DNA of 64,000 bases from Blastococcus saxobsidens (GTDB lineage: Bacteria; Actinomycetota; Actinomycetes; Mycobacteriales; Geodermatophilaceae): positions 1-64,000 of the forward strand of contig NZ_JAAGWG010000004.1 of assembly GCF_010682065.1 (NCBI RefSeq). The letters are read 5' to 3'. Position numbers and translations under genes: made by a program. Below are positions 38,865 to 52,252 of the stretch, in pieces (the first letter of the stretch is position 1; every line of letters begins with the position of its first letter). The notes beneath the pieces are model-generated. The model saw only the letters and a program-made list of their open reading frames with translations, made no database searches and had not been told where the DNA came from.

Positions 38865-39428
38865 ATGCAGGAGCAGCTCGGGATCGACGGGAGGACGGCC
38901 GCACTGGTCGTGCTGGCCACGGTCGCGATGTACCTGACGCTGGTGCTCTGCGTCCGGCTCGTGGGCCAGCGCAGCCTCGCCACCATGTCCAGCTTCGACC
39001 TCGGCTGCGCGATCGCGCTGGGCGCGGTCGTCGGCCGGACCGTGCTGCTGCTCGACCCGACCCTGGCCACCGGCGTCGTCGCGATCGTCACGCTGTTCGC
39101 GACGCAGACCGTGCTGGCCCGGCTGCGGCAGAACCGCTGGGTGGACCGGCTGATGAACCGCCCGCCCGTGCTGCTCATGGCCGGCTCGACGCCGCTGACC
39201 GACAATCTGCGGGCCGCGCACGTCGCCGAGGACGAGCTGCGGCAGAAGCTCCGTCTGGCCGGCATCCGGAACCTCGCCGAGGTGCGCTGCGTCGTGCTGG
39301 AGCGGACCGGAGCGGTCAGCGTGATCCGGCAGGGCGAACCGCTGGACCCGTGGCTCTTCTCCGACGTCCCCGGCGCGGAGCGGCTGCGCGCGGCCGCCCC
39401 GGACGACGCCCGGCGTCCGCCGGCATGA
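38865..39428 (+). CDS. DUF421 (YetF-like) membrane protein
   Basis: A 187-aa protein with three N-terminal membrane helices (about 12-32, 45-62, 66-86) and a cytosolic C-terminal domain. GQRSLATMSSFDLGCAIALGAVVGR and the later AHVAEDELRQKLRLAGIRNLAEVRCVVLERTGAVSVI are DUF421 hallmarks. The function of the family is unknown; YetF-like proteins are linked to stress in spore formers. GGGAGG stands 5 bases before the ATG. First gene of a three-gene overlapping set. Confidence 0.85.
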   Translation: MQEQLGIDGRTAALVVLATVAMYLTLVLCVRLVGQRSLATMSSFDLGCAIALGAVVGRTVLLLDPTLATGVVAIVTLFATQTVLARLRQNRWVDRLMNRPPVLLMAGSTPLTDNLRAAHVAEDELRQKLRLAGIRNLAEVRCVVLERTGAVSVIRQGEPLDPWLFSDVPGAERLRAAAPDDARRPPA

Positions 39429-39577
39429 CCCGGGCGCCCGGGGAGATCCCGGACCGGGCGGTGCTGCTCCTCCAGGGCGCGGTCGTGGCCGGCTTCGCCG
39501 CCGCCCAGTTCGTCGCGCTCCGCCGGAGCCGACCGGCCGGGCGGAGAACGCGCCCGGGCCGCAGACTCGGCACGTGA
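39425..39577 (+). CDS. Small single-helix membrane protein, 50 aa
   Basis: The ATG overlaps the DUF421 stop (ATGA). One hydrophobic segment (VLLLQGAVVAGFAAAQFVAL, about 13-32) is followed by a strongly basic tail (RRSRPAGRRTRPGRR), giving an N-out or tail-in membrane anchor. No family recognised. Coupling to DUF421 upstream and the acidic mini-protein downstream supports real translation. Confidence 0.55.
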   Translation: MTRAPGEIPDRAVLLLQGAVVAGFAAAQFVALRRSRPAGRRTRPGRRLGT

Positions 39578-42181: not shown

Positions 42182-42247
42182 CCACACCCGGTCGCGACCC
42201 GCCCCCGAACGGGTGTGACGCGGTGCCGCCGGGGTGCACGCCGAACG

Positions 42248-43714
42248 GTGACCCAGCAGGCTGTCCGGGTGTCCCTGTCCCTGCCGGGTCTGCCCGCGCT
42301 GCCGCCCGAGCTGGCCGGCCCGGTCGCGGTGCAGCTGGCCAAGCCGGTACGGGAGATCCCGCAGCCCACGGCGCTGTCCGGCGGGTGCCGGTACGAGCCC
42401 AAGTGGGACGGCTACCGCCTGGTCGTCGTTCGGGACCGCACCTCCACCCGGCTGTGGTCGAAGCAGGGCCGCGACCTCACCGACCGGTTCCCCGACGTCG
42501 CCGCCGCCGCGGTCGCCCAGCTGCCCCCGGGGTCCGTCGTCGACGGCGAGGTCGTCATCTGGCACGACGACCGGCTGGACTTCGGGCTGCTGCAGCGCCG
42601 CATGGTCACCGCCGCCGGGCGGATCGCCGCCCAGGTGGCCGCCGCACCGGCCTCCTACGTCGCCTTCGACCTGCTCGCCGCCGGTGGCGAGGACCTCCGC
42701 CGCAGCACCTTCACCCGCCGCCGGGCGGAGCTGGAGCGCCTGGCCGCCCGCTGGGCCCCGCCGCTGCAGCTCTCCCCCGTGACCGCCGACCCCGCCGAGG
42801 CCCGGCGGTGGTTCGACGACTTCCGGCCCGCCGGGGTCGAGGGGCTGGTCGTCAAGGGCGCCGCCACCCGCTACGCGCCCGGCCGCCGCGACTGGCTCAA
42901 GGTGAAGAGCTGGGAGACCACCGAGGTGCTCGCCGGCGGGGTCATCGGCCCGATCGAGCGGCCCAGCCAGCTCGTGGCCGGCCGCTACCGGGACGGCGAG
43001 CTCGTGGTGGTCGGCCGGACCAGCCCCCTGTCACCGGAGCAGTCCGCCGAGCTGGCCGGCGTCCTGCGCCCCGCGGGTGCCGACCACCCCTGGCCCGAGC
43101 GCATCGGGACGGGCCGATTCGGCGGCGGCCGGCTGTCGGTGCCGCTGACCCGGGTGGAGCCCACCGCCGTGGTCGAGGTGAGCGCCGACGCGGCGCTCCA
43201 GGCCGGGGTGTTCCGCCATCCGCTGCGCTTCGTCCGCGTCCGGCCGGACCTCCTCGCCGAGGACCTCCCCGGGCTGGCCGCGGCGACCGCGGACGTCGAC
43301 AGCCCGCCGGCGGTCCTCTTCGTCGACGTCGACGACTTCAAGACCATCAACGACACGCTCGGGCACGCGGCCGGGGACGAACTGCTCCTCGCCGTCGCCG
43401 CCCGGCTCTCCGCCGACGTCCGCGGTGGGGACGTCGTGGCGCGGCTGGGCGGCGACGAGTTCGCCCTCCTCCTCACCGACGCCGACGCCGACCGGCTGCG
43501 CGACGTCGCCGACCGGCTGCTGGCCGCCGTCCGGCTGCCGGTGGAGATCGCCGGCCGGTCGGTGAGCGTGACCGCGAGCATCGGTGGCGCCCTCGCCGGC
43601 CCCGGTGCCACCGCCGAGCAACTGCTGCACCGGGCCGACACCGCCATGTACAGCGCCAAGCGCGGCGGCAAGGACTCCCGGGCCCTGCTCGACACCGCCT
43701 CCGGCGTCCACTGA
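42248..43714 (+). CDS. ATP-dependent DNA ligase fused to a GGDEF (diguanylate cyclase) domain
   Basis: A 488-aa protein in one uninterrupted frame. Residues 35-345 are an ATP-dependent DNA ligase of the short LigC-like type: adenylated Lys in EPKWDGYR (K52), VVDGEVVIW, YVAFDLLAAGG, EGLVVKG, WLKVKSWE, then an OB-fold with LAGGVIGPIERP and GRFGGGRLSVPLTRVEPTAVVEV. Residues 354-485 are a GGDEF core: LFVDVDDFKTINDTLGHAAGDELL, GGDEF at 401-405, and RGGD (392-395) exactly five residues before it, a consensus c-di-GMP inhibitory site. The N-terminal DxLT helix of normal GGDEF domains is missing. I know no described protein of this design. Start uncertain: GTG 42248, or GTG 42215; neither has a good ribosome site. 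Both halves appear catalytically complete at motif level. Confidence 0.85.
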   Translation: MTQQAVRVSLSLPGLPALPPELAGPVAVQLAKPVREIPQPTALSGGCRYEPKWDGYRLVVVRDRTSTRLWSKQGRDLTDRFPDVAAAAVAQLPPGSVVDGEVVIWHDDRLDFGLLQRRMVTAAGRIAAQVAAAPASYVAFDLLAAGGEDLRRSTFTRRRAELERLAARWAPPLQLSPVTADPAEARRWFDDFRPAGVEGLVVKGAATRYAPGRRDWLKVKSWETTEVLAGGVIGPIERPSQLVAGRYRDGELVVVGRTSPLSPEQSAELAGVLRPAGADHPWPERIGTGRFGGGRLSVPLTRVEPTAVVEVSADAALQAGVFRHPLRFVRVRPDLLAEDLPGLAAATADVDSPPAVLFVDVDDFKTINDTLGHAAGDELLLAVAARLSADVRGGDVVARLGGDEFALLLTDADADRLRDVADRLLAAVRLPVEIAGRSVSVTASIGGALAGPGATAEQLLHRADTAMYSAKRGGKDSRALLDTASGVH

Positions 43715-52042: not shown

Positions 52043-52252
52043 GGGACCTCCAGCTGCGCGGAACGGGACGGACCGTCCCTTCCCACCCCGGTCGTGGCCC
52101 ACGCGTCGGGCGCCGGCAAGGCGAGCCTGACCTTGGCCCGCGGGGGCCACGGGTCGGCCCCGGCGTGACACCCCGGCCGGGCAGGACAGGAGCGACCGTC
52201 CACACCGTTCCCGCCACGCTCCACCCGCCCGACCCACCCCTGCGAGGCCGCC

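Follow-up and report, generated by a model that had tools for sequence, protein, structure and literature searches.

ATP-dependent DNA ligases of the LigC type, described in mycobacteria as LigC (PMC5663958), have ligase motifs in common with the first half of the protein that we discuss here. In diguanylate cyclases, a coiled-coil linker brings two GGDEF domains together, and both this linker and the DxLT turn have been tied to cyclase activation (PMC8041772 and PMC6733907). New genes are known to arise when a deletion joins existing genes, and, of two deletion-born fusions in the M. tuberculosis complex, neither appears to be immediately functional according to the authors (Kaul et al., preprint 2026, PMC12803068). 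We found no pairing of a ligase with a GGDEF domain in the open-licence PMC literature, where searches for it brought up a survey of jumbo phages and a study of an EAL domain, and nothing there on Blastococcus together with cyclic di-GMP.

In the window (the whole stretch of 64,000 nucleotides of Blastococcus DNA that was analysed), such a pairing is encoded in one continuous frame. We propose that a private and young deletion of about 1.45-1.47 kb joined two adjoining genes and that the result is a chance fusion, not a new type of enzyme; on the comparison with relatives given below, this is probably the correct explanation.

The fused reading frame

The frame (42248..43714, plus strand, as are all features below) encodes 488 amino acids plus the stop. 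It is open without a break from the GTG at 42248 (the GTG at 42215 is an alternative start) to the stop at 43712-43714, and Pfam recognises domains of both kinds in it. The adenylation domain of ATP-dependent DNA ligases (DNA_ligase_A_M, PF01068; 42332..42907) lies at residues 29-220, with 110.8 bits against a cut-off of 26.2. The C-terminal OB-like region of the ligase (DNA_ligase_A_C, PF04679; 42965..43249) lies at residues 240-334 and covers positions 6-93 of the 94 in the profile, with a score (24.2 bits) that is below the cut-off of 27.5. The GGDEF domain (PF00990) follows at residues 348-476 (128.2 bits against a cut-off of 23.8) and matches the profile from position 27 to position 160 of 161. 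The original prediction, that ligase motifs are followed in one frame by the catalytic motifs of a GGDEF domain, is borne out: KWDGYR (lysine at 42401-42403), EGLVVK, and WLKVK are all found, as is the GGDEF signature (43448..43462). Five residues ahead of that signature is an RxxD (RGGD, 43421..43432), which we take to be the c-di-GMP inhibitory site. The R and D of this site and the GGDEF residues are invariant across the window and 21 aligned orthologous cyclase domains.

The ligase half scores best against NF006078/PRK08224, which is presumably the LigC model, but with 225.3 bits it falls below the curated cut-off of 296 and in this it differs from LigC. Its orthologue in the B. saxobsidens relative (G008) is also under the cut-off (222.8 bits), and another ligase copy in the window genome, on contig C34, is well above it (519.7 bits). 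Because of this difference in score between the two copies, we consider the ligase half to be a LigC-like paralogue. Since the part affected by the deletion is a short variable tail, it is essentially whole, and so far as can be judged from the residues present the ligase is probably intact.

The junction and the neighbouring genes in relatives

The ligase is present in all 22 of the other Blastococcus genomes examined, where it has its own stop, mostly behind a tail such as EDLPPLP. In 21 of these 22 genomes, a GGDEF homologue on the same strand starts 1455-1522 bases past the ligase stop and is part of an open frame that is 612 codons long or longer; it belongs to a separate PAS/GGDEF protein of about 600 residues. 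Thus, the separate parts and the intervening DNA that mark a deletion-born fusion are found in 21 of the 22 congeners, and a fused ligase-GGDEF is found in none of them. With the two genes apart in close relatives, the fusion looks accidental. The original prediction had listed a surviving chance recombination among its options, and it is this one that agrees with the neighbouring genes. The prediction had also proposed looking in relatives for the same junction, which none of the 22 congeners has; a fusion shared by no relative was one half of what it had named as its own refutation.

When the window is aligned with relatives, the alignment splits sharply at 43271/43272. At this junction (43270..43274), homology to the end of the ligase gives way to homology to the interior of the neighbouring cyclase gene. 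The gap between the two aligned blocks is 1452 bases in the B. saxobsidens relative versus −8 in the window, and 1470 bases in Blastococcus sp. LR1 (G017) versus +3 in the window, so about 1.45-1.47 kb that is present in both relatives is missing from the window. On the left flank, the window reads EDLPG at the end of the ligase where relatives have EDLPPV-stop, EDVPGI-stop, and similar endings. On the right flank, relatives read NERLAAAT and so on in the interior of the cyclase gene, and the window reads LAAATADVD. The missing piece comprises, on the ligase side, the last codons and the stop, and then the spacer; on the cyclase side, it comprises the start, a hydrophobic N-terminal part (judged by eye in the B. 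saxobsidens cyclase), the PAS domain, the DxLT turn, and the first half of helix alpha0. The B. saxobsidens cyclase has 617 residues (PAS at 321-431 and GGDEF at 445-598), and the window retains it from residue 463 on, as a C-terminal remnant of 146 amino acids (43274..43711). In the 21 orthologues, TDPLTGLLNR or a one-letter variant of it, together with the first half of helix alpha0, lies just upstream of where homology to the window starts. The original prediction was therefore right that the first part of the GGDEF domain, including DxLT, is missing and that the join is not end-to-end. It had placed the junction around residues 345-354; the join is indeed nearby, but the actual site, about residue 342/343 (43271-43274), precedes this range by a few residues.

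In short, the ligase runs into the tail of the cyclase because the roughly 1.5 kb between them are missing in one genome, that of a soil bacterium. The deletion that we propose would have taken the end of the LigC-like ligase gene (its last codons and stop), the spacer, and some 460 codons from the start of the cyclase gene. It would have left an almost complete ligase that continues in frame into the GGDEF core. Within 120 bases around both breakpoints, the longest common word in each of 21 relatives measures 6-10 bases, and any homology at the join must therefore have been short. On the same evidence we reject a repeat-mediated deletion or the collapse of a repeat. The event probably took place in the organism, by end joining or by illegitimate recombination over a few bases at most.

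Like the fusions of Kaul et al. (PMC12803068), this one consists of fragments of two genes joined by deletion. It differs from them in that the genes are next neighbours and both halves have recognisable catalytic motifs, and also in that it is seen in one genome only, too few to speak of fixation or spread. As long as nothing else is shown, one junction in one genome is best regarded as a product of chance. A striking pairing of domains can arise from one deletion between neighbours, and here it is explained by comparison with relatives. If the deletion is real, then we see a deletion-born fusion at an early stage, in which the catalytic cores of both parts can still be recognised, and it would be suitable for testing whether such joins acquire a function or decay.

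A wider search gave the same picture. Across 112 genomes of the family, the window genome is the only one among the matches listed by score that spans both halves without a stop; the list is sorted by score, and a fusion would rank first. A match in G005 that reaches residue 460 includes a TGA. In six genomes of a second genus (G023-G026, G029, and G038), a GGDEF match on the same strand lies about 2.5 kb from the ligase start, among the matches listed. We also considered 77 loci from named genomes (these overlap partly with the 22 congeners), of which 71 hold the ligase. A GGDEF start on the same strand is less than 2 kb downstream of the ligase in 22 of the 71 and less than 400 bases downstream in none, and none has a fusion-like arrangement (for 4 of the 71, the available sequence ends within 2 kb downstream). 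An established two-domain enzyme is rejected, as the architecture is in no other genome examined.

The GGDEF neighbour is absent from the Geodermatophilus, Goekera, Modestobacter, and Arthrobacter loci. It is also absent from six loci titled Blastococcus (L067, L068, L075, L078, L082, and L097), so not every member of the genus, as named, has ligase and cyclase side by side. In the one congener of the 22 that stands apart (G021, locus L046), there is no GGDEF match above 50% identity in the 5.2 kb downstream of the ligase; its ligase without an adjoining GGDEF gene could reflect an independent loss or ancestral absence. The ligase gene is apparently frame-shifted in L058 (G018), in L052 (G007), and at G031:C1:3114301-3115325, which could mean that it is dispensable or that these are sequencing errors. 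Finally, a locus titled UNVERIFIED_ORG Bacillus sp. AZ43 (L074) has a Blastococcus-type pair of ligase and cyclase, and its name is probably wrong.

Assembly error as an alternative

A second explanation is that the two genes are separate in the organism, as in its relatives, and that the missing piece dropped out during assembly. The contig with the window, C38, is part of a 4.09-Mb assembly in 77 contigs that is 91% complete, as compared to 96-100% for the 22 congeners. There is an assembly fault elsewhere, because two contigs duplicate 38,982 bases: G000:C28:1-38982 and G000:C74:1-38982 (L161-L164) are identical from the first base, and C28 is only slightly longer (39,061 bases). Both of these observations favour an assembly error, as do a junction that is in no other genome examined and a GGDEF half that is undecayed (see below). 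However, repeat collapse is not expected where the breakpoints share only 6-10-base words, and there is no N anywhere in the window. Also, the missing stretch is on no other contig: the best DNA match to it in the genome's own assembly is 91 bases at 74%, and the genome's best protein match to the relative's cyclase is the fusion itself (residues 463-607 of the relative). The junction occurs once in the assembly. We thus reject a second copy, or a stray contig that carries the missing piece.

The surroundings of the junction also argue against an error. Over 84 kb, the window genome and the B. saxobsidens relative are largely collinear. Of 43 B. saxobsidens frames that are supported in LR1, 39 were found in the window genome, and the other 4 lie at the far end of the relative's contig, past the compared stretch. 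All but one of the 39 recovered frames can be aligned for 80% or more of their length, and the sole exception is the cyclase. (The alignments of 5 of these 38 frames contain one or two stop codons; those may be false antisense frames.) Overall, we consider an assembly error unlikely, though with a tangible chance of being true, and in our judgement the deletion is probably real. Other, larger length differences were seen on both sides in this comparison, for example: an alignment gap at 52106-52115 is 8 bases in the window versus 123 in the relative, and, as a separate observation, window positions 39422-39566 hold 143 bases versus 2482 in B. saxobsidens, with a gap of 389 bases in LR1.

The GGDEF half and the spacer

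The GGDEF half is 87-89% identical to the C-terminal end of the B. saxobsidens PAS-GGDEF cyclase that adjoins the ligase, but unlike that cyclase it has no N-terminal part, PAS domain, or DxLT, and only half of alpha0. A complete domain would have the DxLT turn and helix alpha0; here the turn is gone and the helix is cut. Where a sensory or dimerising N-terminal part would be expected, the ligase stands in its place. Because the sensor, the linker, the DxLT turn, and the start region are gone, the cyclase would, as a regulated enzyme, be abolished or severely weakened. Going by its domain content, we expect that the cyclase is probably disabled and that the GGDEF half does not act as a regulated cyclase. 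The ligase may well keep sealing nicks with a passenger of 146 residues.

The part of the cyclase that remains shows no sign of decay. For GGDEF, dN is 0.045 on the window branch versus 0.050 on the branch of the intact B. saxobsidens gene, and for the ligase it is 0.012 versus 0.021. (This analysis used 19 ligases and 21 GGDEF domains: G021, which has no cyclase, was omitted, as were G007 and G018 from the ligase half because of the apparent frameshifts.) Also, the window's GGDEF half has no private change at positions that are invariant in the 21 others. Relaxed selection on this half was not seen. The lack of decay is compatible with a deletion that is very recent, with an error of assembly, or with retained function. 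When the GGDEF half is modelled alone, the mean pLDDT is 91 and the model resembles solved GGDEF domains. On this model, the GGDEF core would still fold, and it might bind c-di-GMP or GTP.

A third explanation is a bifunctional enzyme, in which c-di-GMP or GTP, bound to the GGDEF half, controls the ligase, or in which c-di-GMP is a product of the fusion. The retention of the GGDEF, nucleotide-site, and RxxD residues, in a half that is no less constrained than its intact relative, would suit this explanation, as would the predicted fold. But the fusion is in one genome only (compared with 22 congeners and, among the matches listed, 112 family genomes), and the DxLT turn, linker region, PAS, and N-terminal part are lost. 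Of these, the DxLT and the coiled-coil linker are described as taking part in cyclase activation (PMC8041772 and PMC6733907). This makes a bifunctional enzyme very improbable, and a functional link of nick sealing to signalling by c-di-GMP, which the original prediction had raised, is not supported. Beyond the intact and undecayed GGDEF motifs, nothing supports control of the ligase by c-di-GMP. A variant would be that a young fusion is being kept because its sensor-free GGDEF core, judging from its motifs, binds c-di-GMP via RxxD (or GTP) and so modulates a repair ligase. If true, this would be a direct link from the level of c-di-GMP to nick sealing, but we give it hardly any credence. So far, nothing can be learned from the fusion about a connection of c-di-GMP with DNA repair.

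The spacer between ligase and cyclase in relatives contains a CGATG box in 21 of 21 cases (a mean of 1.6 in shuffles and 0/21 in control stretches). The box is 10-13 bases ahead of a GTG or ATG; in 18 of the 21, this codon shares the reading frame of the cyclase, and in 11 of the 21 spacers a CAAG or AAAG lies 15-19 bases upstream of it. We considered a flagellar-sigma-type promoter and rejected it: TCAAG-N14/15-GYCGAT occurs 10 times in the genome's own sequence as compared to 7 times for the reversed control, so the pattern has no general support, although there is one match above the FliA/WhiG cut-off. Whatever its type, the spacer box (in L039 and 20 other relatives) is a candidate promoter that may give a nearly leaderless cyclase mRNA, separate from that of the ligase.
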